64,000 bases of DNA from NCBI GenBank assembly GCA_030077755.1, contig JAQJZZ010000012.1, forward strand, positions 1 through 64,000. Direction: 5' to 3'. Below, piece by piece: positions 356-19,615 of the stretch. Position 1 is the first letter of the stretch. Every line of letters begins with the position of its first letter. The stretch comes from Filosporella fistucella (lineage: Eukaryota; Ascomycota; Leotiomycetes; Helotiales). A program made the translations under genes and the position numbers. Under the pieces are notes generated by a model. It had not been told where the DNA came from, did no database searches, and saw only the letters and a list, made by a program, of their open reading frames with translations.

Positions 356-3300
356 CTATGCCTCATCCACCTTGACATAGTATCCCAAATCCACCGGAGT
401 TGCCCCTGCTGCTCGTTCCTCCTCCGGCAATGGTACAACGAAGGGCCCAAATTCCTTGTCGACCAATACGCAAAGTTTTCGATCCTTCACGCAAAGGGTG
501 CATGCCTCGTTCGGAGTGTTGCTGGCTGGTGGATTGAAAGCACGGCTATAACCACGGACTCTGGTATCGGCACATCTCTCAATGGCGGTTCTACCCTTTC
601 TCGTGCACCAAAGAGAACCCTTTTCCTTCTCCCAGAATTCGATCTGCTCCTCCATCTTCTCTACCAAACGAGCGTCGACCTCGGAGATTCGAGTGCCTGT
701 AGCAGCCTCTCCGCCGGTGAGGAAGGTGTATCGTGTTGGATCGACGGTCGAGGTGGGGACTGCTGGTCGATTGCGATTTTCCTCCAAGCTGTTGTACTTC
801 TGAAGAAGTTCCTCGTAAACTCCCTTCTCGATCTTGTCGGCACAAGCAGAATGTTCCGTGGCGAGGCTATCGTATGTAGCTGCACAGTCGTTGTGAGTAT
901 TCTTCAGGTTATCGAATCGTCGTTGAAGGTCCTCGTGAACATCCTTCTCAACCTTGCCTGCGCAAGCATTGTGATCACCTCGCAGATTGTCGAATCGTAG
1001 TTGAAGATCGTTATACTTCTCGGCACAAGTGCTGTGAGTATTCTGCAGATCCTGGAATCGTTCCTCGAGAGTCTTGTAAACACTCCTCTCAACCTTGTCT
1101 GTGTGGGTACTTTGCAGATTGTCGAATCGTTGCTGAAGATTATCGTAAACACTCTTCTCAACCTTCTCTGCACAACCTTGATGTAGTTCAGCGAGGTCAT
1201 CATAGTGTCTTCGAACCTCATTAAACTCAGCACGAGCTGTCACGAGCTGTTCGGTGATGTTGTCGTGCTTCGATGCACAATCCTTATGCTCTTCCTGCAA
1301 TGTAGCCAATTCAGCTGTTCTCTCTTTCAGCAGCTCCTTTTCGATATCTGAGGAATTGACAAAGTTATGATGATAAGTATGCAAATCATCAAGATCCTTC
1401 ACCAACTTATCCTTATCATCTTGAAGCAAATCGATATCTGCACTCAAACCTCGTACTTCTTCAACGTAAGCAGTTTGAAGTGCATCTCTTTCTGCAGCGA
1501 TTCTGCCAGCAACGGTTCTGACATTTCGAATGTGAGATTTCAAATTCTGCCTCTTCTTCTCGGAAGTAACCTTGAGAAGATTGTTAGCATTTGTCAAACT
1601 TACATTATTTTGGACAAGATTGTCGCGTTGAATTGTCAAAGATTGCTTATCCGAAGCAAGATTGTTTCTCTCAGTTAAAAGATCATCTCTCTCATTGGAA
1701 ATGGTGACCTTTTCGATATTGAGAGCATCAATACGACTCTCAAGGTTGCCTTTATCGATATTGAGAGTGCTGATCTGTTGATTCAAGCCACCGATGCGAG
1801 TATTCAGCTCCTGGTTGCCAGTATCGAGGGTATTGATGCGACCCTGAAGTGTTGATCCCTCCTTCTCAAGGTTGCTCTTCTCGATTTTGAGATTGCTGAT
1901 TTGACTGGTCAATTCTTGATTGCGCTTCGTAATGGCGTTTCTCTCGTTGACAATTGAAGTATTCTCCTCCTTGAGAGTGTTGATACTATTATTCAAGTCC
2001 TGGAGACGTGAATCTTTCTCCCCGATGATGTTGTCCTTCTCGATATTGAGATTGGTAATTTGCTGGGCCAATTCATCGTTGCGAGACTTGAGGGTATTGA
2101 GCTTCTCATTCAATCCATCCTTTTCATCATCGAGATTCTCAATTCGACTGCTCAGCTCCTGAATTTTCGTGTTAAGAGAGTCGATTTGAATCTGCAGACC
2201 ATCATTTTCGGTGTCGAGGTTATTGATCTGAACCTGCAGACCATCATTTTCGGTATCGAGGGTATTGATCTGAATCTCCAAACCATCTCTCTCCAAATTG
2301 AGAGCAGTAATCTGATCCTCCAAGATTTGACTATCTCCAGAAAGACGATTGACCTGACGATTCAATACATCTCTCTCGGAAATGACAGTGCGCAATTGAA
2401 TGTTCTTCTCCAACAAATTACCCTTCAATCTGCGATTATCCAATTGCAACTTCTCAGTCAAGGATTCCTTCTTCCAAAGAGTAGATCGAGTCTGCTCCAA
2501 GGTATCATTCAATTGATCCTGTGATTTGAGAGAATTATCCAAATCCTGCTGGGAAGCTACCAATGCAACTTGAGAACTTGTAACCTGGGTTTGATTATTT
2601 GTTGCTGCATTTTGGGCACCTGCAAGTTGGATGATTAATTGTTGACAACGATCCTCGAGGGTTGAAAGGGAGAGATTATATCGTGTTTGCTCTCGTCGAA
2701 GATTGGTGATCTCTGTGGATGTGGTTTGAATTTGATTATTCAATCCAGCAATCTGTGCATCCTTCTGAACGATTGTTGTAGAAAGGGTCTGGATCTGTGT
2801 ATCCTTCTGGGTGATTGCTGTAGAGAGCGACTGAATCTGAGTACTCAAATCGCTAATAGATCCATCCCTCTGGGTGATTATTGTAGAGAGTGACTGAATC
2901 TGTGTATCCTTCTGGCCGATTGTTGAAGAATGCGTCTGAATCTGTGCATTCAAATCGCGAATAGATCCATCCCTCTGGGTGATTTCTGTAGAATGTGTCT
3001 CAATCTGTGCGTTCAAATCGCGAATGGATCCATCCCTCTCGCCGATCGTCGTAGACATCTTCTGAATCTCATTCTTCAAGCCAACAATCTGTACATCCCT
3101 CTGACCAATTGTCGCATTCAGATTCTCAACATCACTCGTGTAACGTCTAATCGTATTCCTCAAGGACTCTTCGTGGCTACGTGACTTCTGAAGGTCCGAA
3201 TATGTTGACAAATAGCCATCCTGAGCGCGTGTGAATAGCAAATCGCTATATTTCGATTCCCTCTGGAGCTTCGTGATCTCTGAATCCCTGGTGATAATTT

Positions 3301-4534
3301 CAGTACGCAATGTACCAATGTCAGTATCGCGTGTGCGCAAAGTTGACTGGAGAGTTTCAATCTCGTTGTCTTTCCTTTCAATCTGAGTGCAGTACGTTCC
3401 TACTTCAGTCTTGCGCAACTCGATTGTATCTTTCAAAGACTTGATGATTGTATCCTTCTGATTCAAGTCCTTCTCATGCTGATCAATCCTGTTCTGCTTC
3501 CATTTGTCATAACTCTTGGATTCCTCTCGCAAAGCCAAAAGTTCATGTGCCCTTTCGCGGTTGGAATCACTCGAAGCGTTGACTTGTTTTTCGAATGCAT
3601 CCCTTTGACTGGTTGTAGTATCCAAGAGCGTCTTGAAATCGTCGGCACGATTCATTTCTATCTCCAATTTGTTGCGAAGCTCAATAATTTCCACATCCTT
3701 CTTCTCAGCCTCAACCTTCAATGGATCGTACAGTTCTCTCAAGTCTTTCTCTGCCTTCTCTGCTTGAGTAGCGGTATTCTTGAGAGTCGATTGAATATTC
3801 TTGATTTCGTTGTATCGATTCGAAAGGGTTGCAAGCTCCTCCTTCAACTCATCAACCTGCTTCTCAAACCCCTTCTGCTTTTCCTCCCAAAGAGACTTTT
3901 GCTGTTGAAATATTTCAATCTCCCTCTTCAACTGATCGATTTCGGCTTGATTGGTGACAACCGGGGGAACTAGACCTGTCTTCAGTTCAGCTTGAATCTT
4001 ATCAAATAGTGATTGGGCTGATGAGCCACTCAGGAGGTTGGAAACTTGATTCAAGAGTCGTTGATTATCTTGAAGTATTCTTGCCATTTCTCCATCAACT
4101 CTGGCAGTGATTTTCCCTAGATCCATTCGAACGTCTGGAATGATACTAGCGACACTCTCAGCAATGCGGTCGCGCTTTGCCTTTCCTCCGTCTGTCATAT
4201 CAAAGATATGCTTATCAAGGACCCTCATATGTGTCTTTGCAGCCTTGAGCAAAGTATTCATCTCCAGAAACTGTGCTTGACGTTTGTCCAGATGGGCTTT
4301 AACGGCCCGAGGGCGCAAATCTCTTTGAGAATCGAATGACTGGCCAGCAGGAAGATCGACATCCTTGAATCTCTGGATGACTTGTTTGAATTCATGTGTT
4401 GCCAAAGTCATCGCGGCAACATACTGGTCCTCTGCTAGCATTGGTTCGCAATCGCGATCAAACGCATCGAAACCTGGGCGGGTTTTTTTCTTCTTCTGCC
4501 CATGGTTATGAGCAGCTTGGAAGACTGGATTCAT
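356..4534 (-). CDS. Subtelomeric 1392-aa heptad-repeat coiled-coil protein with Cys-rich C-terminus
   Basis: A single uninterrupted ORF, the longest of the window, starting at the first ATG after the hairpin cluster at 4585-4722. After a basic start (KKKK near residue 15), almost the whole chain is predicted coiled coil rich in E, K, Q, N and L. Internal repeats are multiples of seven: 14/21-residue units around 490-610 (ITQRDGSIRDLNAQI type), 14-residue units around 740-790 (LDTENDGLQVQI type) and roughly 28-residue units around 1120-1250 (VEKSVYDNLQQRFDNL type, with recurring Cys). The last 90 residues are different: a globular tail with CTLCVKDRKLC and further Cys, then VVPLP, reminiscent of small Cys motifs at the C-termini of fungal orphan proteins. 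There is no ATPase domain, so it is not an SMC protein. The stop codon is 48 bp from the telomeric array. Function unknown; a structural or scaffolding role is inferred from the coiled coil only. Confidence 0.85.
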   Translation of the reverse strand: MNPVFQAAHNHGQKKKKTRPGFDAFDRDCEPMLAEDQYVAAMTLATHEFKQVIQRFKDVDLPAGQSFDSQRDLRPRAVKAHLDKRQAQFLEMNTLLKAAKTHMRVLDKHIFDMTDGGKAKRDRIAESVASIIPDVRMDLGKITARVDGEMARILQDNQRLLNQVSNLLSGSSAQSLFDKIQAELKTGLVPPVVTNQAEIDQLKREIEIFQQQKSLWEEKQKGFEKQVDELKEELATLSNRYNEIKNIQSTLKNTATQAEKAEKDLRELYDPLKVEAEKKDVEIIELRNKLEIEMNRADDFKTLLDTTTSQRDAFEKQVNASSDSNRERAHELLALREESKSYDKWKQNRIDQHEKDLNQKDTIIKSLKDTIELRKTEVGTYCTQIERKDNEIETLQSTLRTRDTDIGTLRTEIITRDSEITKLQRESKYSDLLFTRAQDGYLSTYSDLQKSRSHEESLRNTIRRYTSDVENLNATIGQRDVQIVGLKNEIQKMSTTIGERDGSIRDLNAQIETHSTEITQRDGSIRDLNAQIQTHSSTIGQKDTQIQSLSTIITQRDGSISDLSTQIQSLSTAITQKDTQIQTLSTTIVQKDAQIAGLNNQIQTTSTEITNLRREQTRYNLSLSTLEDRCQQLIIQLAGAQNAATNNQTQVTSSQVALVASQQDLDNSLKSQDQLNDTLEQTRSTLWKKESLTEKLQLDNRRLKGNLLEKNIQLRTVISERDVLNRQVNRLSGDSQILEDQITALNLERDGLEIQINTLDTENDGLQVQINNLDTENDGLQIQIDSLNTKIQELSSRIENLDDEKDGLNEKLNTLKSRNDELAQQITNLNIEKDNIIGEKDSRLQDLNNSINTLKEENTSIVNERNAITKRNQELTSQISNLKIEKSNLEKEGSTLQGRINTLDTGNQELNTRIGGLNQQISTLNIDKGNLESRIDALNIEKVTISNERDDLLTERNNLASDKQSLTIQRDNLVQNNVSLTNANNLLKVTSEKKRQNLKSHIRNVRTVAGRIAAERDALQTAYVEEVRGLSADIDLLQDDKDKLVKDLDDLHTYHHNFVNSSDIEKELLKERTAELATLQEEHKDCASKHDNITEQLVTARAEFNEVRRHYDDLAELHQGCAEKVEKSVYDNLQQRFDNLQSTHTDKVERSVYKTLEERFQDLQNTHSTCAEKYNDLQLRFDNLRGDHNACAGKVEKDVHEDLQRRFDNLKNTHNDCAATYDSLATEHSACADKIEKGVYEELLQKYNSLEENRNRPAVPTSTVDPTRYTFLTGGEAATGTRISEVDARLVEKMEEQIEFWEKEKGSLWCTRKGRTAIERCADTRVRGYSRAFNPPASNTPNEACTLCVKDRKLCVLVDKEFGPFVVPLPEEERAAGATPVDLGYYVKVDEA

Positions 4535-4584
4535 CTTGAATTGATGTTAGTAAAATAACCAACAAAAGGATTTGGTTTTGAATT

Positions 4585-4722
4585 CCTCAGTCAATGAAGC
4601 CTGAGGTGTTTTTCTGTCAATGAAGGCAGAAGAAGGGGGAAGGGGGAAGGGGGAAGGGGGGTTGGTTTTGAACTCCTCGGTCAATGAAGCCTGAGGTATC
4701 TTCTGTCAATGAAGCCAGAAGA
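4585..4722 (-). promoter_or_regulatory. Four invariant-loop hairpins upstream of the coiled-coil gene
   Basis: Two pairs of dyads lie 50-190 bp upstream of the 4534 start. Plus-strand view: stem CCTCAG/CTGAGG at 4585-4606, stem TTCTG/CAGAA at 4612-4631, stem CCTCGG/CTGAGG at 4675-4696 and stem TCTTCTG/CAGAAGA at 4699-4722. Each encloses the 10-nt loop TCAATGAAGC (the second copy ends in G). The pair is duplicated with a spacing of about 90 bp, separated by a purine-rich tract. The same loop occurs upstream of the next two subtelomeric genes. It could act as RNA structure in the 5' leader or as a dyad protein-binding site. Confidence 0.75.
4631..4671. repeat. Purine-rich simple repeat (GGGGGAA)n
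   Basis: A short run of repeated AGGGGGA/GGGGGAA units lies between the two hairpin pairs upstream of the coiled-coil gene. The strand asymmetry is complete: purines on plus, pyrimidines on minus. Confidence 0.85.
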
Positions 4723-7700
4723 AAAATTGGGAGTTGACAAGACGATATGTTGTCGTAAAGAGCTTGAGGATGTGCTTGAAGAGTTGAGAGTATGTTGCAG
4801 TTGTGTGCGGTGCTCCTTTTTGATGTGTTGAGGGGAGTGAGGTGGGAATTGAGGATATACTTTGAGTGCGCGGCACGCTCTAACGCGAACGCACTAACTT
4901 CATTGGGATGGCTAGGTCGAAGGCATTTCGCAATTAATGACACTGAATTTGAGAAGCAATCCTGTTACAAATGAGGGAAGTACATCCCACATTTTATTTG
5001 CTTCTAATGCGATTGACAGATCTGCCCACTCCTTATGTCAAACCTCGATTGCCCAACTGCTTACGGCAAAGATTCCAGCCTTCAACCTTACCACCCCCTC
5101 CTCATCGTCCCAAGGAGTTGGAGCAGGTTCGAACTTTCGACATCGATACACGGCGCAGTTGGCAGAATATCATACAATCTACAACTTCTATGAGCTTTAA
5201 TTGGGATTCTGCGGTCAATTGCACTACCCTGGCGTCGACATCAAGACAACAAGGGAATATTTGAGCCTTGATTTCAATCCTTGATTGATTGAAAGGCGTC
5301 ATGGGCTACCGACAAAAAGTTGGAGGCATCCTCAGACTTCTTCAACCCTAGACTTCCAATGGCGAAGACAAGCTCGTACCGCGAGAATCCCTTCTAAGGC
5401 ATGCAAGGTCGATGATATTACACTCTATGAGATATCATTCTGCCTCGCATAAGTTCAATCGTCCACTTCCTCGAGTACCAGCACATTTGGAGAACTCATT
5501 CTGATGATTCGTTGGATCAAATCGAAAGACTCGTGCCAGTGTTAACTCAAGTACCTGATCCTCCCTCCCATCTAAGAACATCACTGAAATTTCAGCTGCA
5601 GACTCAGCTCTATTCTTTAACCCGTTCTCAAGAAGAACCTGTCCCTCGAGCGAGGCACTACTTTGAATCATCAGGATGGATCCACGTAGGAAACATACGT
5701 CCAAGCTTTCGGTGGGCATAAAGATAGGCAAGAAGAAGTGTACATGTATTACGGGAAATGAAACAGGAGCTGATGGAGGATGCATTTTCGATAAATTAAT
5801 AACATCTTGGAATGGTTTTGCATAATCAAGTTGGAAGCCCGAGGAGGCAATGGAGGATTCTGAGACTATACAGAGTCCAATCATCAAGCATCTGGGCTTG
5901 GGATAATTGATGGATTAATATTCCCACATGTTCTTCTTCCAAATGATCAAACTATTGGCTTCTTCCCATCGCTGTAGAACACTTTTACTGCACCGCGAAC
6001 GAGTTGCCGGTGAATACAAGAGACTTCTCGAGCAGTCATCTCCATCTTCCCATCTTGTGGAAAGCTTGGTCAATGTTTGTCACCCGAACCACATACACTG
6101 AATCAGATTCTTCCTATGTCAACCGCATCCCTACTTTCATAATACCCTGTAGTACGTTCTCGGATGTCCAGGAAATCACCTGTTGGAGCCCTCAAGTTCT
6201 ACTGAATGCGAGTTGCAAAGGATTTAGTCCTGAATGGAGAAGGTATAGTCCAGGATCCGTTCCATGTACGTCAGTACTTTCAGTGCCGCTGTGATTCACC
6301 ATTTTAGTACATTGAGAGGTCTCAATACCACCACCTGCATGTACTTGGCTCTTCCTGATGGCCCTAAAGCCAGAATACCCGGCTGTGTTATCTTTGTTGA
6401 TAGACCAGTTTGCTCTACCCATTACCAGGCCTCGATCCGCCAAATGGAACATAAATGCCATCTTCCAGTTTTGCTGATCTCACGAGGCTGACCATGTATC
6501 CCAATTTGAATGCCAGTCTCTTGTGGCAAGACTGCAGACCGTGGTGACGCTCCGCTGGCCCTCCGGGGGCCACTGCCGTGGGGGCCGTCTGTCGTCGCAA
6601 CTGGCGGTTTCGAAAGGGTGATTAGGGATTCATTTGTTTTAGAGATATCAGATCAGAGCGGGAAGTATAGAAAAGAGGATGGGGTTGATGTGTACTCACA
6701 GAAGGCCAAAATCCTCGCCGAGAATCCATCTTGTCATTACCAGCTGTTTTTACAACTCTCATTCGAACAATTCCGCAATACTATAACCAGGCCGACTCGA
6801 CATCGCGCGTTACACACACGTTTCTGTCGAATTGGCAGATCAGAATAGTATTTGCGTCGACCTACATCGCCCCTGTCGACCGTTGATGATATCTATCACT
6901 CCAAGCTGCCAGGCGCGAGGCACAATTCAATTCAGCCCATGAAACGAAAGGTGACATTTGAATCGCAATTTCACCGCATGCACAATATCTCCGTCGCATA
7001 TCGCTGAAAGCAGAGGTTTACGCTGTATTTCCGCGCACAATTGTTCAGATCTCGTATCCAGATTCCCAGAAATCTGCCAGTGACTACCGCTGCTAGTATT
7101 TTCAGATAAAGAGAATATTTAGATCTGTAACTTCCATATCCCCGCTTCGACTGAACATCCTTCCCTCCACTTGCATGTCCAACAACTGTGCGTCCAATGA
7201 TCGAGGATGGACTCTGCGTAGCAGGATCCCGTGTATATTCTGCAGCCAAATCTCCAAACAATGCCTGTATCTTCCGAGTCCCTCCTGCAGCACCGCGTTC
7301 TTGTTGTCGTTGTGTAGCTTGGCCAGTAAAACAGTAGTGTATCCAACCGCTCATTGACACCGGGTAACCATACGTCAGAGTCAATCTGAATCGAGATCAC
7401 CTTGCACGACTTGGGCTTTCTAGCTCGAGTTGTATTTCGGAAATTGCAGAGCGAGCATATATTGGGGGTGGCTTTTGGTGAAGAAAATGGTCAATCGAGA
7501 TAAGGGAATTGTATTCAGGGTAGGAGGCTTCAATGTTGATAGTTCCATTTCAATGTCGAGGGAAATGAGCTGCATGTCCTGTTAGCCCATTGATCGAAAG
7601 ATGGTACTGCGAGCTTGATAGTATTGATTTGCGGAGCTGTATCACGATCAACCACAATGTTCGGTCCTCATGTCCCCTCCCTCAAATTCTCTCGTATTCC

Positions 7701-9318
7701 GGATAATTCTGCGTGTTATGCTGGCTCAGATATGTCTGCGGCTAGAGAATTTGCTGCTCATTATGAAGTCACTGGCGCAAGCTGAAATTGCCAGCTCATT
7801 GCACGTCCTGTGTTGATGATTCTGCTCGAAGGAAGAGGTTCGTTCGGATGATGTTTGATTGTTCTGCACCAACAATTGCACACATTTGGCTATAAACTTT
7901 CAGGACCGTGTTGTGCTTGCCACGTCAATCAGAGCAGAGAAACCACCTGTGTTTTCTTTGGCAGATAGTGCCAGCTTATTCTCCTCGTTTGCAGGCTTCT
8001 GCCGGTCAAAAATATCACGAATGCAGCCTTCAACTATTCCTGGTGTTACAAGGCTGGTCATTTCTTGATCCGACTCGAGTACCAGTCTGACACGACAGAA
8101 CTGGAATACATGGATGATCTGGCTCCCTTGGCAGCCCAGGTAAGCCTCTGCTGCAAAAGTTTTAAAAGGGTTTGAGGTCGGAGTGCAATTCGAAGATCTC
8201 GTCGCAGCAGGCGGATTCAAGAGAATCGATCAGAGTATCTTATTTGTCTGTTATATCAGATCAGCCGAAAACAGCATGGAGAATATTGAGATTGATGGAC
8301 ATCTACCAGGAATATACTAGGCAAAGAGATGGGGATTGAGTTTGCTGCATACCCTGTTGATGTTAGAGCCAGGAATATCCTTCGTCTTCACGATGTTTCA
8401 TGGAATCTTCAATTCCGACCCTTTCATAAGCCAGCAAGTCAGACTAGATATCGTCGGCTGCAGTGTAGTTCCTTCAAGTCTCTGGATATCATACAGGGCT
8501 TCCTATTTCGACCAACATCGCCACTTCCAACACAACGGCTCCCTCGAATCTACCCATACTCCATTGAGGGACTGCTGGCGAGTTGAGCATCTACTCTCGC
8601 GGGCTGGAAGATTGCCAGCTCGTTGGAAGTCCTCTGAATGTCGTGCTGAACTGGGAGAAATTGTGGAGTGATGCTGTTTGATTGTGGGTCAATCCCAGAC
8701 GTTAGGCCACAGACGTTAGGCCACTGTGCTTGGTCAGAAAGCTGCTCGAGTTGAAAGTAAAGTTGCATCATCCTTCGAATCCGGTCAACAGGTCTTGATG
8801 ATCTGGCAAATCTTATCGTACACTAGCAATCAACCATCGATACTGGCTAGTACCATGGCAACATCTCGCAGTTCGTTCTGGTCGAGGGACGAGAATGTAC
8901 CCTTCAAAATGTAGGTGGCCGTCTCCTTCAAACATCACCTCGGTGTGGTTCATCGCAGATTTCCAGGCTGGAAAAGCCTAGCATGGCGAAACAAAGCGAA
9001 TCCGATGTTGGGGAAATTGACGTCAATGCCTGGACCAGGAAAGCTTAAATCAACTTCACTTGCCAGCCACACAAGTACCACACTCGGCAGAATCACATTT
9101 CATTGATCGACCATATTTAGACGGAAGAAGCTTTCATTGTGATGTTTGAAGAGCTGTCTGATCTGACCAGCCAACTAAACCCAGGTCCCATTTCCTGATC
9201 TCCATCCTCCATTTCATCACTTCCAACTTGATCCAATCCATTGTCCTAACTATCTCTCCAGTTCCAGTTCCAAATTAATCCCCGAAGCCAATCCCAGACC
9301 ATCCTACCGAGACCTAGT
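4723..9318. other. Subtelomeric spacer without a supported gene
   Basis: About 4.6 kb with only short overlapping ORFs (the longest is 150 codons at 5435-5887, minus) that show no recognisable motif, repeat or splice structure. A direct 14-bp repeat (CAGACGTTAGGCCA twice) lies near 8698-8725. Two loosely similar stretches around 7780 and 8605 share ATTGCCAGCTC and a downstream TGTTTGATTGT, which suggests an old segmental duplication that has decayed. No tRNA, rRNA or transposon ends were seen. Confidence 0.6.
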
Positions 9319-12054
9319 CTACGACTCCATCTCTTCATCGTCTGTCTCCTCCTCCAGCTCTCTCGCAGCCTGCAAAAATGCCTCCAAAAGACCCAATTGC
9401 TTTTCGGACTCTTCTAGATTGACGGTAATTTGCTCAGGCAAACTATTAAGCTTATCCTCCAACTCGTCAAGAGTATCCACTGCAGCTCCGACGTTGTCGC
9501 GTCTCTCGATCGAAAGGTTGGTGGTGTCGATATAAAACTTCGTCCGGTCTTTAACATTCTGCACCTCTTCAAACAATCGCTGAATGAAAGCTTGGTCATC
9601 CCTCAACTTCTGCTGAATAGCTCGATAATGCGAGGCGGGTATTCTTTGGTCAGACCCAGCATTGTTTGTACCTGCATGCCAATGACTGAATCCACCACCT
9701 TGATTGATATAAGCCAAACCAATCCTCGATGCAAGTATTTCATCCCATTTTGCATGGTGTGAATGTGCAAGGTGGTGTATAATATGCTGTGCAATCTTAT
9801 AACCATTCAATTCGGGAACAACTTCACAAATTGCTTCTGCCAGATTCATAAGGAAATTGGAACTTCGATGTTCGGCGTGGTCCTTAAGACGTTTCTTTGG
9901 ATGACTTGCATATCCAACCTCTGATATTGGACGAGTAAGGGGAACATTTTTCGGACATCCAGCTAAACGTTCCTCGACACGTTCAGCCCAGACTCTGCAA
10001 ATATTCAAGTTCTTTGTCGAATCGATATATTTTCTCTTTCCCTCCTTACAAGCCAAGATACTTGCAGGTTTACCCCTGACTGAATCGACTTTGGCGGCAA
10101 ATTCGGCGGAATCAGTATCGAGACAATCGTATCCTCGAATATAAAGTCCCCAATGTTCTAAAAGAATTTCCATTTCATCTGGTGTCAAAGCTTTTCCGGT
10201 CGTCTTGTGGGTGAGATAGTTGACATAAGTAGATGGGTATTCCCTCTCTGGAATATTGCTGAGTGATCTCAATCGTTTGGCCAACTCCGGATTGTTCTTT
10301 GACTCCTCATCAAGGGTTCCAGAGACAAAGAACTTCAAGACCACTGGATCCCAACTAACAATCATCACCCACAATCTTCGAATCATTTCTTCGTATTTGC
10401 CGTTTTTCCTCTTCACAACCCACTTGTCGCAAGGCATTCCTTCAAGATCCATAGCCGTATGGACGAGAGAATAAATTCCCTCTTCGTATGCTTCAATCAA
10501 GTTATCGGAACACTCTTGATATGCAGATACACCAGGATTCTTGACTTGAGTCGCTGCGAAGTCGTCGTCAGCTTCGTCTAGGATTGCCTGTAATTCTGCC
10601 TGCGTTTCTGCTGCGAGTGCACGATCTTCAGCATCTGATTCTGTCTCTTCTTCATCGATGGCAGGATCCTGGTCTTGATTTTTCTGTTCAGCGTCAGCTT
10701 TTTCCTCATTACTGGGAGATTTGGGCTTCTCTGAGGCTTGGCTTTGAGTGTCCATGACATCTTCATCCGAAACGCGAATCACATCCCCCAAAGGTCTTGG
10801 TGTAGTGGGATCTGCTTGATCCCCTGGATTCTGTGTATCAAGGCCATCGTCGGTGAAGTAGGTATCCGGAATACTTTGATCCTGTTGCTCTCCGTCAGGT
10901 GGATTCACAGGTTGTTCTCCATCAGATGGGATCCCAGGTTGCTCTCCATCAGATGGAATCGAAATGGATAAATTGCTAAACCCCTGACTAATATCGGCAT
11001 CATCTGGGACGACTGGAGGAGATGCCATATTTACATCGCTTCCCACTCCCAAATTATGGTCAGCAGATGTAAATGATAGATTTGAATTGATATCAAACCC
11101 ATCTTCTCCCACCCTTGGAGGTGTATGATCTGGATCCTCGTCAGTTGAAAACGATTTTCCTGGTCGAAAAGCAAGGGACAAAGCTGGAGAATCTCCCATT
11201 ATAGAACCTCCAGTCATTCCTTGAATATCTCCCATTATAGAACCCCCATTTCCTCTTTGTGTCTTTGTCGGAGTTCCTAGTTCAGAAGATTGTTGTACTT
11301 GTCGTCCTCTTCGAATAAATGGTTGATCAGAACCATCAGTATCTTCAGAAGAATCTACTGGAGGTGGTCGAGAGAGTTGATAACCTGTAGAAGTTCCAGA
11401 AGCGTTAGCAGTTGTACTGGCATTTGATTGATTCAACTTAGCAACAGCCTTTCGAGGAGGAGGAGAGGTATCAGAAGATGGAAGATCGAAAATATCCCCA
11501 GATCTTGCAATCTTTTGACCAGATTTTGTCCTCAATTTCTTTCCTGAAGATTGTTTGGACTTTTGTGGAGTATCATCGAATGATCTCTTGTCAGATCCTC
11601 GAATAGTGGTCGAAGAAGATCCAGTATTGGTAGTTCCTGCTCCTGTCGTCAAGTTAGGAGTTTTTTGAGAGGAGTCAGCGTCGTCTTCTCCTTCTCCAGA
11701 CTCATCTGTATCATCTTCTTCAGGATCTTTTGGATCGTCAGAATCTTTTTTAACTTTCCATACAATGGGAGATTTGGCATTGGCCTTCTCCCACTTGGCC
11801 GCGAATTTCTTCTCCCATGCTGTCACTTGTTCGGGATATGAATTCTTGAGTTCTTGTTCAATAACTGCGTATTCGTAATCCTTCTCGTCGTTCTCGTATT
11901 CATGCACGATGATGCCGTATACGGTGCTACCTTTCATGTTATATTTGTTTTCGATAGACCTGATTTGGTATACTTTCTCGCCACTGGCATCCTTTTTCAC
12001 AGTACGATCACCCGTACATTTGAAGGTCAATCGGAAGGTGTATTTGCCTGCCAT
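9319..12054 (-). CDS. Subtelomeric 911-aa acidic protein of unknown family
   Basis: A second long intronless ORF read towards the telomere. Residues 1-100 look folded (beta-rich start with KYTFRLTFKCTG, then EYAVIEQELKNSYPEQ). Residues 105-500 are low-complexity, Ser/Asp/Glu/Pro-rich and probably disordered, with basic patches near 165-185 (SGKKLRTKSGQK) that could serve nuclear import. This part holds micro-repeats: GGSIMGD twice (270-287) and a 9-residue unit IPSDGEQPG three times (366-392). Residues 510-890 look like a conserved globular domain rich in aromatics, Cys and His (CDKWVVKRKNGKYEEMIRR, EHWGLYIRGYDCLDTD, QGGGFSHWHAGTNNAG), followed by an acidic helical tail. I recognise no catalytic motif and assign no function. 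The context (hairpin pair upstream, long single exon, same direction) ties it to its two neighbours. Confidence 0.8.
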   Translation of the reverse strand: MAGKYTFRLTFKCTGDRTVKKDASGEKVYQIRSIENKYNMKGSTVYGIIVHEYENDEKDYEYAVIEQELKNSYPEQVTAWEKKFAAKWEKANAKSPIVWKVKKDSDDPKDPEEDDTDESGEGEDDADSSQKTPNLTTGAGTTNTGSSSTTIRGSDKRSFDDTPQKSKQSSGKKLRTKSGQKIARSGDIFDLPSSDTSPPPRKAVAKLNQSNASTTANASGTSTGYQLSRPPPVDSSEDTDGSDQPFIRRGRQVQQSSELGTPTKTQRGNGGSIMGDIQGMTGGSIMGDSPALSLAFRPGKSFSTDEDPDHTPPRVGEDGFDINSNLSFTSADHNLGVGSDVNMASPPVVPDDADISQGFSNLSISIPSDGEQPGIPSDGEQPVNPPDGEQQDQSIPDTYFTDDGLDTQNPGDQADPTTPRPLGDVIRVSDEDVMDTQSQASEKPKSPSNEEKADAEQKNQDQDPAIDEEETESDAEDRALAAETQAELQAILDEADDDFAATQVKNPGVSAYQECSDNLIEAYEEGIYSLVHTAMDLEGMPCDKWVVKRKNGKYEEMIRRLWVMIVSWDPVVLKFFVSGTLDEESKNNPELAKRLRSLSNIPEREYPSTYVNYLTHKTTGKALTPDEMEILLEHWGLYIRGYDCLDTDSAEFAAKVDSVRGKPASILACKEGKRKYIDSTKNLNICRVWAERVEERLAGCPKNVPLTRPISEVGYASHPKKRLKDHAEHRSSNFLMNLAEAICEVVPELNGYKIAQHIIHHLAHSHHAKWDEILASRIGLAYINQGGGFSHWHAGTNNAGSDQRIPASHYRAIQQKLRDDQAFIQRLFEEVQNVKDRTKFYIDTTNLSIERRDNVGAAVDTLDELEDKLNSLPEQITVNLEESEKQLGLLEAFLQAARELEEETDDEEMES

Positions 12055-12168
12055 TTTGATTATTGACCGACGTAGAAGACTTACTTTTGATTCTTCTAGT
12101 TTCCTTCGACGAATAGACGGTGTTCAAAGGTCTACTCTGAAGCAGCCTTTGAGGGTTTTGGATTGGAT

Positions 12169-12282
12169 AGAAAGTCAATGAAGCCTTCCTGTAATATGGA
12201 ACGTTAGTTGAGTCAGTGGTATGCTGAACCTCTGAGACAGGGTTAGTAGATTGAGTGGATGAAGAGTCAATGAAGCCTCCTC
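12169..12282 (-). promoter_or_regulatory. Two invariant-loop hairpins upstream of the 911-aa gene
   Basis: Dyads at 12169-12190 (AGAAAG/CTTCCT) and 12261-12282 (GAAGAG/CTCCTC) enclose the loop TCAATGAAGC. Each stem has one A/C mismatch on the plus strand, which becomes a G-U wobble in the minus-strand transcript (AGGAAG with CUUUCU; GAGGAG with CUCUUC). That would give six paired positions in RNA of the sense strand. The copies are 92 bp apart, close to the 90-bp pair spacing in front of the coiled-coil gene. Confidence 0.7.
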
Positions 12283-12959
12283 TGACGATTTTATGGCGCT
12301 GAGTGCTGTAATCGTGGGTTTCAAGGTGAGCAGGACAATTTTTCGTTCTGTAGCATGTGGAGAAGAGTTGTGTGCGGCAGGAATTCGGATTTTGAGGGCA
12401 TTCGCGTGCGGGACGCGCGACGAGGCTGCGCGATTGAACTCGACCTTCAGAATGCCGCAGGTCCTTTGGCAGATTATGTTCGTGGTAGGAATCAATCAAG
12501 TTGACGAGGATTTGATACAAGCAGCTAACTGGATTCTACAAGGCAAATTCTCCCTACCCTCCTGGAGGACTTGAAGTTAGAGCAGGGACCTCCAACCTCT
12601 CTTGAGCCTCATTCGATCCGTTTTAGCAGGGAAGAATATATCCTGATGTGAATAGGGACGAAACCTTTTCACATTCATCTAGTTGGTGGCTTCACCCAGA
12701 CGAATCCCAGACTTTCCTGGGCTTAAATTGTTCATCCCTCCAGAATTGCAGTATCTATTGGCTAGAATACGAGTGCATTACTGGATCAAGGAGGCAAGTT
12801 GATCTTGCCAGTGCATATGGAGAATAAAGAACTAATATTGGATGTGAAGACTCCAGACTTTAGGAAGCCCTTGCCCTGTCGTTCCTTGCTGCGAAATGAC
12901 CTCGACCTCACCGTTGTCAGATCTCAGCCCTGCGTGCCACCATAAGTGGATTGGAGAAG

Positions 12960-13192
12960 ATGAGGGCAGACTCCAAGATGGTAGATATCAACTTTCTTAC
13001 CGAAGGTAAGGGCTTCCCACCGGATAGTCTTGATCAGTATCTGATTTCTTCATTATAGCTGGTTACAGACTGAAGGAGAGAGTACCCCACAATACGGTTT
13101 ATACCATGGTTGAATTTGCAGACGAGGGAAAAGTAGATTGGCAGTCTATGGAAGAATTCGAGAGTGATGACAACGATAAGAAAGTTGGGTGA
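12960..13192 (+). CDS. Possible 59-aa two-exon small protein or gene remnant
   Basis: Exons 12960-13005 and 13059-13192 join in frame across an intron with a GTAAGG donor and a TTATAG acceptor. They give a 59-residue acidic peptide containing VDINFLTEAGYRLKE, HNTVYTMVEFADEGK and VDWQSMEEFESDD. The codon pattern looks coding, but the product is short and matches no family I know. Coding-like stretches continue on the same strand to about 13714 (13189-13524 with a tandem repeat, then an open segment at 13512-13714 with no ATG), so this may be the first part of a decayed larger gene. Confidence 0.3.
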
Positions 13193-15025
13193 CTTCCGGT
13201 ACAATCTACTGTTTTCACGTTGCCAGAGAAGCTAACAAATCATTCAACAAAGACCCTATCCGTCCATTCGAGGCCATGAACTCGCATCTATTTGAATATC
13301 GCATCGGGAGGAAATTGAACAGGCAATATTGCATTTCCGCCACTTCGGACGATTACAAAGTTATAATCACAGCCAGCCAACCTGGTATGTGCGGGAGATG
13401 GGTGGCCAAGCATCAAGACGCCACCTCAGACGACCACAACGTTACAAGCAAAGCCAGCCAAGTTGGTATGTGCGGGAGATGGGTGGCCAAGCATCAAGAG
13501 AAGCGTCCTAGGGGACTGAACTGAGCAGTTTTCAAACGGATATTGTGGATTGGCGCAATATTGATGATGGAAGTGGCAGTGAGGTTGGCAGAGTTGCCAT
13601 ATTCTTCGTAGCTACAGTGAACAATACATCCTTCTTCACATCCTTCGACGAAGTCGGGAATGCATCAAAGACAAGCGTATATGCAGTAAACAATCCGCAA
13701 TACTTTGGAGTGTGACAAGATCTGTTGTTCTCTTGCATGTGATCAGAAAGCACCTTCCAATCAGTTTGTGCAGATTCGCTGTTTCTTTCGATAACCCGGT
13801 GCTCAGGTGGCTCTTTCACTGCAGTGTCCTAGCTATGATTCAATATATTTCGCGGTGATTTCAGACTGTTTACCCTTCAGCCGTGACTTTCCATTTGTTC
13901 CCAAGCTTCAGCAGTATTGTATTCCTGTAGACCTCCGCGTTGCTCCACCCCAAATATGGTCAACATTTCGATGCTCCCAATAGCTAATGAATGGTTGCAG
14001 ATTTTTGATAAAACTTATGATGCCTCGCCTGAGTTCTTTTCTCCATCTTGCCTTACAATGAATGGATATGATTATTCCCTGCCAAAAACCCCCAATAACT
14101 TGTCTTCCACTGGCCAGCATATCCTTCAGATCTTGTGCGTCAGCCTGGAATTCGACTACTTGTATCCCACCAATTTAATCGCCATTGTATTGGAGAGAAG
14201 CATATTGTAAAGCGTACGTAGATCGCGTGCCATTTGTCGAATATGTAGATGTTGAAGAGAAGGTTCATCCGTCAATCCACAAGCTGCCCATATGTGTTCC
14301 AGCGCTTCCTAAAAATTACTGAATGGTCGACGATTCTCGTTGTATGCTCAAAACTGTGTATGCCTGGAATCCATCTGCCTTTTGCACTCGCCAGATGTCA
14401 GTTGTGATAAGTTGTCCTATTCAGCATCACCCTCCAGAGTATTGTCTTCCAGAGCATTACTCTCCACAGCAGTTTTGGATCGACAAGTATGGCAGAAAGG
14501 AGTCGACGATGTAGGTATAGTGATCGTGGTTGCAGGCCGACATATTTCAAGACCTGTTGATCCATTTAGCTTCATGAACGCGTGGAAGGGCGGCAGAATG
14601 CGCACGCCTCAATGCAAACCTGATCCAATGATAGATAGAATAATGTACTCACATTTAAGAAGCTTTAAGCCACTCAAAATCAATATACGTTTGGATTGGT
14701 AGGGGAAGAAAAGTTGGTATTGCGCAAAGTAGATGACATTGCATTCCCACTTGTTGGACAGGACTGTAACTTTACACTGAGCTCTAGAGCCTTATCAGAA
14801 TCCCGGTTTGTTCCAAAGTTTCTGTACGTATAGATGGGGTATTTAGAAACGTATAATGGCAATTTCTTTACACGCATAAATCACGATCATTAAATCAATT
14901 GTTGGGATGCCTTCATTGGTTCTAGGCCATCCTCCACGCCTTTCCTCTCCCAAATCATTGCCTCAGATCCCACTCCTGATCTCTTCCTCCGACGTCCTCC
15001 ACACTTCTCTTCGAGTGCCCTATTC
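13193..15025. other. Spacer with decayed coding traces, no supported gene
   Basis: Apart from the tandem repeat at 13340-13501, the stretch holds an open frame at 13512-13714 (plus). It reads like protein (VDWRNIDDGSGSEVGRVAIF, FFTSFDEVGNASKTSVYAV) but lacks an ATG and a clear splice partner. From about 13,720 to 15,025 I see only short random ORFs. Confidence 0.5.
13340..13501 (+). repeat. 81-bp tandem duplication, in frame (27 aa x 2)
   Basis: Two adjacent units, 13340-13420 and 13421-13501, share the second half almost perfectly (TGGTATGTGCGGGAGATGGG onward) and diverge in the first half. The period is a multiple of three and the frame through both units is open, giving GMCGRWVAKHQ twice inside a 111-codon ORF (13189-13524). 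Confidence 0.9.
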
Positions 15026-18000
15026 TCATCTCTTCCAACCAGGTCGCGCTTGAGGTGGGATGTACTTGCTCGATGGATTGATCTTCGGAGGAGATGCTGT
15101 CATCGGCTGGTCGACAGAAGCTGGATTGACAGGAACGGGAGGAGCTAATGGCAAGGCAGGAACAATTTTCATCGATCTGCTGAGTCCTTCTGCCAATTCT
15201 TGATCGCGAGCTGTATCTTCTGGGCCTGCGAGGCGACGAGGAGCTGCGATTCGACGATTACCAGAGTTTGGATCGAATATCATAGATCCCTCCACATCAG
15301 AGTCGACCTCTTCATCTTCAGGCTGCTCTTCTTTTACCTCATCATTCATGGCAAAAGGATCACTATCATCATACCAGAATTGATCCTCTGCTGATTTCCC
15401 CTGAGGCTTTGACTCGGTCTGGTCGAGGTTATGGAAGAGAGGCAAAACGACATCACCAGTCTTTTCAAACTCCTCCTTCAACTTCTGTGATTTCTCACGA
15501 AGTTCTTGAAGGTGGGAAAGAATACTCATCTCATATTCCTTTCTAGCAAGGCCATTGCTTGCAGCCTTGTAGATCTTGAGCTTATTATCCCAAGTGTCAT
15601 CGAGATTTCGAGTTGTCGTATTCTCTGGAAGCACTTCTGTCCACCAACCTGCATCAAACTCTTGATAATTCTTGGGCAAGAGTTGATATTGATCGCCCAT
15701 GTCGATGATATCACCAAGATCCAATAGATCGACCAGAAGTAAAGCAAATTGCTTTGCCTTAATCTTCTCATTGATATATGGAAGCTCAGTGAGCCATAGG
15801 TCGATATTTCCAACCATCCATAGAACCTGCTTTGCTCGAGTAAGACCAACATTCATGCGATTCCATGTGGCCAAAAAGCCTAGCAAAGCAGGATGATTGA
15901 CATTTGCTGTTGTGATATCGAGAATGATGATATCATTTTGACCTCCTTGAATGCTATCGATGGTGACAACTTGGGGAAGAAACTCAAAAGACATATGATT
16001 CTTTTTGAACATGAATTGTAGCATCTTCTCCAATCGTTCCTTCTGCTCGTTGTAACCAGTGACGATGGTGATCCTCTTGGGGTGGAATTGTTCTCCTACA
16101 CCTGGTCTGTGATTGAGGAGATTCATGACCAATTCCATGATCGCATTGATATTGGCATGGTTGATGGAAGACTTGGTATCAGGAGCGTGAGCCGATTGAC
16201 CATTATTGACGTTCCAGAAGAGTCTTCGAATGCTGTCGCGAGGTTTGGCACCATAGGCAGGAAGGCGACGATTTTCCTGATATCTATGGTTATTGAAGCA
16301 TGATTGAACCCATCTGAATAGAGGTGTGATGACCTCTGTGGATTTGTCGCAACCTAACCAACCATAACTCAACATTCCTGGAAGTAGAGCGATATCTGGA
16401 TTCATGCGATAATTGATCTTGAGTCGAAACATTGGTACATTTCGTGTTCTCATGCTGCGCTCAAACAAAGACATGCCGAATTGCTCCGAGTATTCGTTGA
16501 ATCCTTTCGACATGCAAAGGGGTTTCAATTGCTCATGATCTCCTGAAAGAATTAGATGCTGAGCACCAAGAGCCAAAGGAGTGCAAGAGTCGTGTTCATT
16601 TGCAAACGCAGACTCATCAACGATGATGGCGTTTGGGTTGAAGTCGAGATCTGCAAGTTGAGTCGAGTTGCTGGAAGTTGACACGATAATCTTGATAGAA
16701 GGATCAGCCATAATATTAACAATGGCTTCCTTACCAATTGACATGAACTTCTTCAAAACCTTGGAGACAAAAGGTTTTCCTTTTCGAAGATCATCAAGCA
16801 TCGAAAGCCAAGTTCTTGCCTGATTAACAACTCCAGTATCCCTTGAAGCTCCAGCTACGATACCTTCGAAGTGCTTCATGATATAGGTCCAGAGTTCGTA
16901 ATCCTTAAACTCTGAGAAGTTATCCTGTTCACTACCAGCACGAGAAGCAGCTTGCATCTCATCCTCGGTACAGGTTAATTGATCCCTGAGAAGAGCTGTT
17001 GTTGGAAGGTAAAGAACTTTCATATCCTTCTTCATTGCAGGATTCTGAGCATAGACCTTTTGCAAATCGGGAATCAAACCTCTCATTGTGGCTCTGCAGG
17101 CTTCATTGGAAGGAGCAGTGATCAATGTTCTCTGTCCCAAGAAACCAAAACTGAGAGCGATTGAAACATCAAGAGCCGTCTTTCCAGTACCTGGAGGTCC
17201 TTGAATAATGTTGATGCTGTCTTTGGACTGGAAGATCGATTTCCATGCCTGCAATTGTGGGCCATTGAGGTTCTTTGTGGCGATATAAGCATCGAATGAA
17301 GTCTTGATATCCTCTCTAATATCTCCACTCTTTTGATCCCAAATGCTGGATTCCAAAGGAGAATCTTCCAATTTATGACCTAGGATGAAGGCTCTAAGAT
17401 ATTGGGCATAAGGATTCTTGGTATCCAGCTCCATCCAAGCAAGTTTACCGATCGCGTCTAGCATACGATAACTTGGGATCTCGTTGAACTTTGTGGTCAT
17501 GGTGAAATTGAGTAATTGACCAGCATAGAACCAATTTGCTTGTTCTCTCGAGACATTCCAACCAATAACGAAACTTCTGTTCGTTTCCTTTGGAATAGCA
17601 TAGGCGAACCATGAACTCTCTGGTGTTATTACAGGGGCGGTTGTTGTTGAACCAGGAGTTTGAGCAGGCTGAGATCCAGAGGGTGCTGCAGTCGCAGCGG
17701 CGGGAGCAGCTGGGGCAGAAGAATCTGTATCCATTGCATCAGATCCTTTGGTAGGTTTGATGACAACTGGACTGCCAATCTTGATTCTGAACTGCTGATT
17801 CTCAAGAACTGTCGGGATTCCAAAGCCTTCCTGATTCTTGATTGTGACTTCTGCTCGAACGTATGAACCTGTGATGTCGAGGATTTTTATCTCATGTTCA
17901 ATTGTGGAATTGAAGTATCGCTCGACACAATCCTTTTCGAATTGAATCTCATGAACGAGAGCGACACTCATAATGACTTCCCATTCTCGCATGCTACCGA

Positions 18001-19114
18001 AAGTTGTCTTGACGAGATGTGAAGCATATTTCCTCACAGCGGTATTGTCGAGAACCGTTGTGGGGATTTGCATCCAAGGTTGATGTGGAACGATCAATGG
18101 CATATTGGTGTCATTGATGTATCTCTTGAAGGCATGACCAACTACCTCATCAGTGATGTCGTGGTAGAAAGGGACCAGTCCATTATCAGAAACTACTCTG
18201 ATTCTATGCATCCAGTATGAATCTAGTTCCTGGCAGGCGACTTGATGCTTTCGAGCAACGGTGATGAAAGGCTTCTTTTTATTGAAGTCGGAAACGAATT
18301 TGTCGACATCTTCACTGCGAGTTTCCTCCTTTCCACCAATCCATACTGGTCGGATTAACCAAGAAGCCTTGAAGCTGATCATATTGAGGCCAGACTTGTC
18401 GTCATCGTCATGATATCCTGCCAATCCCATTTCGACGAGTCTTGTCGCAGCACCAGAGTCGATCTTGTGGATGGGTAACTGAGTTTTGCATAGCTCCATC
18501 AATTCTTGGGCTGTGGAGGTGGCTTCTCTGGGAACAACATTCAATTTCTGGATAAAATGGAATGTTGTTGCGAGCTCGTTGTCGGAGTATTTCTTTGCGA
18601 AATTATTTCCACGCAAAACAATTCGCCAACTATCCTTGGTCAAAACAAGCTCTGGGAATTGACTATCGAGGTGGTAATTGACCACCCATCCTTCAAACAT
18701 TAAAGGACCAGCATCTCCTTCACATGTAGTGAGAAGAATGCAATCCTTTTGACCATTCAGCTTTCGCATGGCGTCACGTCCACCTGGATGATCGATACCA
18801 CGTGGAGCGGACGTTGTGTCGTGAGTCCAAGTGCGGAATTCCCGGCAAGCCTTAGCATATGCAGAAATCTTCTTCTGCTTCTTGTGATTTGTGGCTCGGG
18901 CCAATTTTGCACGTGGAGCACCACGTTTTCTACCTGCCCATGGCTGTGATTCCTGTCGGTTAGCAGCAGCAGCAGCAGCTCTTGCCATTGCTCCTCTTGG
19001 CCCAGGAAGGGTGGCAACAGGTGTGCTGGAACTGGATCCAGCATATTGGGCAGCCTTGGCTGGATCCATCACAAATGGATTTGGCTGAGGTTGCTGGTCT
19101 TGATTGGAAGACAT
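15026..19114 (-). CDS. Subtelomeric UPF1-like SF1 helicase, 1362 aa
   Basis: A third long single-exon ORF read towards the telomere. The helicase core lies in the second half: Walker A QGPPGTGKTALD at about residue 633-645, motif Ia LITAPSNEACRA at about 665, Walker B IIVDESAFANE at about 830, motif III LSGDHEQLKPL at about 853, motif IV-like RLKINYRMNPD at about 900, motif V TIDSIQGGQNDIIILD at about 1055 and motif VI VGLTRAKQVLWM at about 1095. The order and spacing are those of the UPF1/SMUBP2 branch of superfamily 1 (AAA_11/AAA_12), which unwinds RNA or DNA 5'-to-3'. DESA in place of the usual DEAx/DECx is a small deviation. The first 600 residues are unassigned and include a Ser/Ala/Pro-rich linker near 460-500; the tail is acidic, then basic. 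It is not a RecQ-type telomere-linked helicase. Confidence 0.88.
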   Translation of the reverse strand: MSSNQDQQPQPNPFVMDPAKAAQYAGSSSSTPVATLPGPRGAMARAAAAAANRQESQPWAGRKRGAPRAKLARATNHKKQKKISAYAKACREFRTWTHDTTSAPRGIDHPGGRDAMRKLNGQKDCILLTTCEGDAGPLMFEGWVVNYHLDSQFPELVLTKDSWRIVLRGNNFAKKYSDNELATTFHFIQKLNVVPREATSTAQELMELCKTQLPIHKIDSGAATRLVEMGLAGYHDDDDKSGLNMISFKASWLIRPVWIGGKEETRSEDVDKFVSDFNKKKPFITVARKHQVACQELDSYWMHRIRVVSDNGLVPFYHDITDEVVGHAFKRYINDTNMPLIVPHQPWMQIPTTVLDNTAVRKYASHLVKTTFGSMREWEVIMSVALVHEIQFEKDCVERYFNSTIEHEIKILDITGSYVRAEVTIKNQEGFGIPTVLENQQFRIKIGSPVVIKPTKGSDAMDTDSSAPAAPAAATAAPSGSQPAQTPGSTTTAPVITPESSWFAYAIPKETNRSFVIGWNVSREQANWFYAGQLLNFTMTTKFNEIPSYRMLDAIGKLAWMELDTKNPYAQYLRAFILGHKLEDSPLESSIWDQKSGDIREDIKTSFDAYIATKNLNGPQLQAWKSIFQSKDSINIIQGPPGTGKTALDVSIALSFGFLGQRTLITAPSNEACRATMRGLIPDLQKVYAQNPAMKKDMKVLYLPTTALLRDQLTCTEDEMQAASRAGSEQDNFSEFKDYELWTYIMKHFEGIVAGASRDTGVVNQARTWLSMLDDLRKGKPFVSKVLKKFMSIGKEAIVNIMADPSIKIIVSTSSNSTQLADLDFNPNAIIVDESAFANEHDSCTPLALGAQHLILSGDHEQLKPLCMSKGFNEYSEQFGMSLFERSMRTRNVPMFRLKINYRMNPDIALLPGMLSYGWLGCDKSTEVITPLFRWVQSCFNNHRYQENRRLPAYGAKPRDSIRRLFWNVNNGQSAHAPDTKSSINHANINAIMELVMNLLNHRPGVGEQFHPKRITIVTGYNEQKERLEKMLQFMFKKNHMSFEFLPQVVTIDSIQGGQNDIIILDITTANVNHPALLGFLATWNRMNVGLTRAKQVLWMVGNIDLWLTELPYINEKIKAKQFALLLVDLLDLGDIIDMGDQYQLLPKNYQEFDAGWWTEVLPENTTTRNLDDTWDNKLKIYKAASNGLARKEYEMSILSHLQELREKSQKLKEEFEKTGDVVLPLFHNLDQTESKPQGKSAEDQFWYDDSDPFAMNDEVKEEQPEDEEVDSDVEGSMIFDPNSGNRRIAAPRRLAGPEDTARDQELAEGLSRSMKIVPALPLAPPVPVNPASVDQPMTASPPKINPSSKYIPPQARPGWKR

Positions 19115-19167
19115 CTTTCTGCAAATTAGTTAAAATGTACAGAAAAGGAAGGGGAAACTTTTGAATT

Positions 19168-19291
19168 CCGGGGTCAATGAAGTCCAACCGGTAAATGAGA
19201 TTTCTTAAAAAATCAGAGATCTTTCTAGAAAACTCAACAACACCAAACACCACCGAGAGAGAAGAATGCCGGGGTCAATGAAGTCCACCGG
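19168..19291 (-). promoter_or_regulatory. Two invariant-loop hairpins upstream of the helicase gene
   Basis: Dyads at 19168-19191 and 19269-19291 enclose loop TCAATGAAGT. The stem is CCGGGG on the left and CC(AA)CCGG or CC(A)CCGG on the right, so four GC pairs plus two inner pairs form with a one- or two-base bulge. The copies are 101 bp apart. The sequence just before the first copy (TTTTGAATTCC) is the same as before the copy at 4585 and nearly the same before that at 4675, showing that flanking sequence is also shared. Confidence 0.7.
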
Positions 19292-19346
19292 TGGGTTTCC
19301 TAAGAAACCAGAGAGCAGAAAGTTTCTAAGAAACGTTAGTATTTGA

Positions 19347-19615
19347 TTCTGCAGCGTTGATTTTGAAGACAGAAATATGATAAATGTCTGGAGGTGGGAG
19401 GAAGGATTGAATAGGTTTTGGTTCTGCAGCGCCGACTCTGAAGAGAGAAGCATGGCGATTGTAGGGATGATGGGCAGAAGAATGCACTTTCGACAGTACG
19501 TCGCTGCTCCAAAAGGAAAGGGGTGATGACTGTCTGGAGGCTGGGCATCTGGGAGGAAAAGCTTTTGATTGTGTCGCTGCTCCAAAGGCAAAGAGAGTGA
19601 TGCTTGTCTTGAGGG
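19347..19615 (-). repeat. Four degenerate units of about 75 bp upstream of the helicase gene
   Basis: On the minus strand a GGAGCAGCGAC/CGCTGCAGAA-type core recurs at about 19587, 19513, 19437 and 19362 (plus-strand cores at 19347, 19422, 19500 and 19573). Each is preceded by a CTTT/CTTC-rich stretch, and the spacing is 73-78 bp. The two outer pairs resemble each other more than the inner neighbours. The array lies 230-500 bp before the start codon, in the promoter or leader. Confidence 0.6.

Follow-up and report, generated by a model that had tools for sequence, protein, structure and literature searches.

In the genome of Filosporella fistucella (45.8 Mb on 19 contigs), the left end of the 1.84-Mb contig C11 (JAQJZZ010000012.1), of which positions 1 to 64,000 were analyzed here (hereafter the window), carries eight copies of a short hairpin with a fixed loop and variable stems. 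These copies lie upstream of three large single-frame genes (genes 1, 2, and 3), which are found in the first 20 kb of the contig and are all oriented towards the telomere. Our analysis demonstrates that this hairpin family is real and maintained by compensatory change. We propose, with a probability of about 0.55, that these dyads correspond to RNA hairpins within the 5' leaders of neighboring subtelomeric messenger RNAs (mRNAs), three in number, which a protein reading the loop would co-control.

The nonamer TCAATGAAG is found on the plus strand at 4591, 4617, 4681, 4706, 12175, 12267, 19174, and 19275, each time between complementary flanks. It is invariant in 8/8 copies, the tenth loop base being C in five copies, T in two, and G in one; all eight dyads of a preliminary description of this sequence were found again at their places. 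In mRNA sense (minus strand), the loop reads N-CUUCAUUGA, also written N-CTTCATTGA, and is closed by a G-C pair that is likewise invariant in 8/8 copies. Each leader holds two to four copies, given here in mRNA sense. In front of gene 1 are hairpin 1 (4585 to 4606, CCTCAG-[GCTTCATTGA]-CTGAGG, 6 bp), hairpin 2 (4612 to 4631, TTCTG-[CCTTCATTGA]-CAGAA, 5 bp), hairpin 3 (4675 to 4696, CCTCAG-[GCTTCATTGA]-CCGAGG, with an A/C mismatch in mRNA sense that is a G-U pair in the other strand), and hairpin 4 (4699 to 4722, TCTTCTG-[GCTTCATTGA]-CAGAAGA, 7 bp). Gene 2 is preceded by hairpin 5 (12169 to 12190, AGGAAG-[GCTTCATTGA]-CTTTCT) and hairpin 6 (12261 to 12282, GAGGAG-[GCTTCATTGA]-CTCTTC), both of 6 bp including one G-U, and gene 3 by hairpin 7 (19168 to 19191, CCGGTTGG-[ACTTCATTGA]-CCCCGG, 6 bp plus a 2-base bulge) and hairpin 8 (19269 to 19291, CCGGTGG-[ACTTCATTGA]-CCCCGG, 6 bp plus a 1-base bulge). 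All are upstream of the ATG, at 51 to 188 bp (gene 1), 115 to 228 bp (gene 2), and 54 to 177 bp (gene 3), i.e., within the 50 to 230 bp announced, and corresponding copies are spaced by 90 and 89 bp (gene 1), 92 bp (gene 2), and 101 bp (gene 3). For six of the eight copies, the predicted RNA fold contains an extra C-G pair within the loop, giving a UUCAUU hexaloop and an N.A mismatch.

The copies of gene 1 and those of gene 3 look like tandem duplicates (58/79 and 45/75 identical columns, respectively), a likeness that is weak for gene 2 (33/64), where the two copies show double-sided changes at 3/6 pairs. There are therefore approximately five independent stems instead of eight. Two further features were seen in these regions. 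A polypurine tract of GGGGGAA-like units (4631 to 4665) is located between both hairpin pairs of gene 1, and the leader of gene 3 contains at 19200 to 19335 a second hairpin family (GATTTT/GAAATC, GGTTTC/GAAACC, and GTTTC/GAAAC around TTAA, TTAG, or TTA) with one paired change between copies.

Covariation was measured on the eight sequences over six pairs. Neither the covariation score (0.714 vs 0.208 when shuffled) nor the proportion of paired cells (83.3% vs 54.9%) was reached by any of 500 shuffles, which bears out both the covariation of the stems and the excess of stem complementarity over shuffled controls. Five of the six pairs changed on both sides, the remaining one being the invariant closing pair, and sliding the partner by 1 to 3 columns gave scores of 0.286 to 0.435; the count of doubly changed pairs alone is unexceptional (matched by 97/500 shuffles). 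When the 3' arms were swapped among the five stem families, the true pairing was the best on either strand (rank 1/120), own-partner pairing energies summing to -36.2 kcal/mol for the mRNA-sense strand vs -26.5 kcal/mol for the opposite one. Moreover, at least 5/6 Watson-Crick pairs around a 10-base loop occur at 0.5% of whole-window positions vs 6/8 hairpins; the two gene 3 copies have 2/6 and 4/6 pairs when ungapped, and they pair once two bases or one base, respectively, are allowed to bulge out.

In an unsupervised scan, 9-letter words were screened for those that form the loop of several distinct stems, and one word, namely, the hairpin loop word, was found with six. The scan controls (60 first-order Markov windows, the window minus the leaders, and 144 loci elsewhere in the genome totaling 216 kb, most of them fetched for holding the loop word and some overlapping) gave at most two stems per 9-letter word and at most three per 8-letter word. 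Among shorter words in the window, two unrelated 6-letter words reach four stems, and none longer does.

At the genome scale, TCAATGAAGY occurs 398 times vs 137 times for a reversed control (~3-fold), and among 30 of these sites taken with any closing pair, the longest contiguous stem is 4. The exact loop with its G-C closing (GTCAATGAAGNC) is found at 49 sites, eight of which are the present hairpins. The flanks of all 41 others, read in the mRNA-sense strand, form 6/6 pairs at none and 5/6 pairs at one. A stability of -4.2 kcal/mol is reached in mRNA sense by 7/8 hairpins vs 2/41 other sites and in the other strand by 6/8 vs 3/41. Four lookalikes among the 41 attain -4 kcal/mol on one strand (L059, with a 5-bp stem; L054; L075, with six pairs in the other strand including one wobble; and L083); they were taken as chance because all lie inside long stop-free frames (117 to 352 codons), the whole 412-bp locus being open for L075 and L083. 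For other closings, the flanks of all 40 C-G sites and of 20 of the 128 A-T/T-A sites, picked towards contig ends, were considered, and a value of -4.0 kcal/mol is attained on one strand by 5/61 scored loops. L122, the best one, has the only eight-pair stem (wobble included) and is inside a 1,166-codon frame (L158). These genome-wide searches cover the exact loop with G-C, C-G, and, for the 20 sites mentioned, A-T/T-A closing. The exact-loop word is absent from the 0.97 kb before the start of a gene 3 relative on contig C13, and a search of the genome for a second copy of the gene 1 leader returned none. Among the sites examined, leader hairpins with the exact loop occur at this chromosome end and nowhere else. 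Clustering at this one end is thus supported for the exact-loop sites examined, 8 of the 49 G-C-closed sites being here and the others providing no leader hairpin of this kind; the telomere link is known for one end only.

These observations bear on two alternatives. In the first, which we consider rather unlikely, TCAATGAAG would be a DNA element, i.e., a transcription factor site in three promoters, with arms that are incidental or shape the DNA. The fixed word, its upstream placement, and the presence of several sites per promoter would suit such an element, CAATG resembles an HMG-box core, and the evidence of the wobble pairs on the strand is ambiguous. Nevertheless, a reader of double-stranded DNA leaves unexplained why the arms vary yet stay complementary, and the 41 other sites, which have the same 11 fixed letters, show next to none of this pairing in the mRNA-sense strand. 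In the second, quite unlikely in our opinion, the hairpins would have a mutational origin, through tandem duplication of leader segments and template-switch correction of imperfect palindromes, resulting in paired stems without function. While the duplicated look of the copies of genes 1 and 3 and a hairpin stability that is not unusual are in line with such a process, the loop should then drift; instead, it is fixed and it is the stems that have drifted, in front of three non-homologous genes.

The regions that hold the hairpins have the features of 5' leaders. ATG-poor upstream stretches with C over G are the usual look of fungal 5' leaders. On the coding strand, 190, 230, and 190 bp upstream of genes 1, 2, and 3 are together free of ATG, whereas dinucleotide shuffling gives 4.7 (P = 0.003); 400 bp of the plus strand contain 10, 8, and 11 ATG, some of which belong to the loops. 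The minus strand has more C than G across most of ~350, ~300, and ~500 bp upstream of genes 1, 2, and 3, and the three highest 500-bp GC skews within the first 30 kb are at the three leader places. The probable leaders, all on the minus strand, extend over 4535 to 4850 for gene 1 (C at least equal to G in every 50-bp step, the two being level at 4551 to 4600; ATG free over 369 bp), 12055 to 12356 for gene 2 (ATG free over 302 bp; C rich from 12151 on and not beside the start), and 19115 to 19453 for gene 3 (ATG free over 339 bp; C rich except at 19201 to 19250). Since the leaders are ATG free and mostly C rich and G poor, the hairpins are probably transcribed as leader RNA.

Several results weigh against RNA hairpins in three leaders. 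Folding energies are unremarkable (z = -1.53, -0.73, -0.40, -1.06, +0.25, and -1.13), and in whole-leader folds both gene 2 hairpins and hairpin 7 are outcompeted, with a probability below 0.1. The C-over-G signature has gaps at 12051 to 12150 and 19201 to 19250, and about five independent stem families stand behind the eight copies. Finally, the wobble pairs leave the strand undecided. As the preliminary description had it, the stems at 12175 and 12267 are fully paired only in the minus strand, each by way of a single G-U, and it is also there that the copy at 4681, whose stem starts at 4675, shows its A/C mismatch; two copies thus favor the minus strand, whereas those at 4617 and 4681 and the gene 3 copies fold equally well or better in the plus strand. 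The earlier reading as an RNA hairpin in the leader is partly supported, by the compensatory change and by the placement in probable 5' leaders.

We propose a model in which the leaders would be transcribed from the minus strand, such that the three mRNAs would carry the hairpins. A loop that is fixed on stems merely required to pair points to a loop-reading RNA-binding protein as the reader; this sequence-specific protein would recognize the folded loop, the stem merely presenting it. Paired sites ~90 to 100 nucleotides apart could result in a higher occupancy. The number of sites in each leader, two or four, and their closeness to the start codon suit a control of translation, stability, or placement. 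Binding may act on the three mRNAs jointly, either by holding back or timing translation or by setting their stability or placement, and we infer that these mRNAs form one regulon. The reader could be a host product or a product of the cluster, i.e., the UPF1-like helicase encoded by gene 3 or the orphan encoded by gene 2. A bolder version, unlikely in our view, would make the first 20 kb a self-contained cassette with a private loop code read by its own product (UPF1-like helicase or orphan), the mRNAs being self-controlled apart from the cell; such a cassette might behave like a selfish or conflict-related telomeric element. If the proposed RNA hairpins are confirmed, one repeated loop code would define a compact post-transcriptional regulon of three unrelated neighbors at one telomere, the loop would be a ready-made bait for the reader protein, and subtelomeric gene control could be approached beyond chromatin silencing. 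To our knowledge, fungal mRNAs have so far provided few cis-acting RNA elements with covariation support.

Two known systems resemble the proposed hairpins. The Smaug/Vts1 recognition element consists of a CNGG loop on a free stem, the loop being read by the protein. A protein-read loop on a stem of free sequence is what we propose here, whereas the N-CUUCAUUGA loop lacks CNGG and the sites found precede three adjacent genes, in their probable 5' leaders. The iron-responsive element, a 5' leader hairpin with a CAGUGN loop and a bulged C at a fixed place, ensures translational control of several mRNAs; the present hairpins share the fixed loop, the paired stem, and, probably, the leader position but have neither the CAGUGN loop nor a bulged C at a fixed place. 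A search with Rfam covariance models gave no match in the window at the gathering score and none at E ≤ 1 within 4500 to 4900. PMC8216456 describes 17 structures of fungal mRNAs with covariation support, including two located in 5' leaders (RPL12 and lysyl-tRNA synthetase), predominantly as a single copy per genome. The present hairpins are alike in their covariation support, whereas they are small, repeated, and common to three non-homologous neighbors. No such element was found among the papers listed by our literature searches, including one with the loop as a whole word, by which occurrences inside longer strings would escape.

Another fungal element repeated in 5' leaders is that of Ssd1/GUL-1 (CNYUCNYU), described as sequence motifs and not as a hairpin in the accessible part of PMC8934651, and we consider it very unlikely that the hairpins are its local form inside a stem-loop. 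Known Ssd1 sites also occur several per 5' leader (PMC8934651 and PMC2573929), and Ssd1 is likely a translation suppressor; moreover, UCAUU is common to the hairpin loop and to the older motif AKUCAUUCCUU. However, CNYUCNYU fits only one of the eight loops (4617), and over 300 bp of each leader it occurs 1, 0, and 1 times vs 0.81, 0.35, and 0.87 expected. CCAACU, which in budding yeasts is located a few bases upstream of the Ssd1 element, is found in 0/3 leaders over the same 300 bp. Lastly, rolling-circle (HUH) origins also present a fixed loop on variable stems, and a signal in single-stranded or cruciform DNA, for example, an HUH nick site, would match the geometry (constant loop of 9 to 10 bases, variable stem) and the fair pairing on both strands, but this is most improbable given several copies in each of three gene leaders, a loop unlike the TAATATTAC type, no Rep/HUH domain in a Pfam scan of 13 window frames (the three genes and ten others), and no confirmed viral relative for gene 2 (no match) or gene 3 (six pattern matches, none confirmed), gene 1 not being searched.

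The three genes, all on the minus strand, are mutually non-homologous neighbors. Gene 1 (356 to 4534) encodes in a single open frame a 1,392-amino-acid coiled-coil protein that passes the Pfam ATG16 cutoff, a match that we put down to the coiled coil. Gene 2 (9319 to 12054) encodes a 911-amino-acid orphan with no significant match in Pfam or PDB, and structure prediction without alignment of two pieces gave a mean pLDDT of 44 and 38. Gene 3 (15026 to 19114) encodes a 1,362-amino-acid protein with an AAA_11/AAA_12 superfamily-1 helicase core, related among solved structures to UPF1, Sen1, and ZNFX1. A genome search found no second match for gene 1 or gene 2; gene 3 has helicase relatives within the genome, the best being 26% identical (on C13). 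Further inward, the frames have ordinary fungal domains in Pfam (ABC transporter, OPT, amino acid permease, Mmc1, and Fungal_trans).

Outside the three genes, a CCCTAA telomere array is found at ~210 to 307 of the window. Positions 1 to 208, on its outer side, are a 100% copy of C14:469432-469639 and therefore represent either a chimeric contig end or a fragment beyond an interstitial array. At ~6538 to 6590, a GC-rich word of ~46 bases recurs at 92 to 100% identity in at least 39 other places on 15/19 contigs, 40 of 65 candidates being scored, which suggests a small dispersed element. The locus L124 (C14:9408-9867), close to the left end of C14, contains the start of a frame whose protein was judged by eye to be coiled-coil-like; it may be another gene of this kind located terminally on a chromosome.

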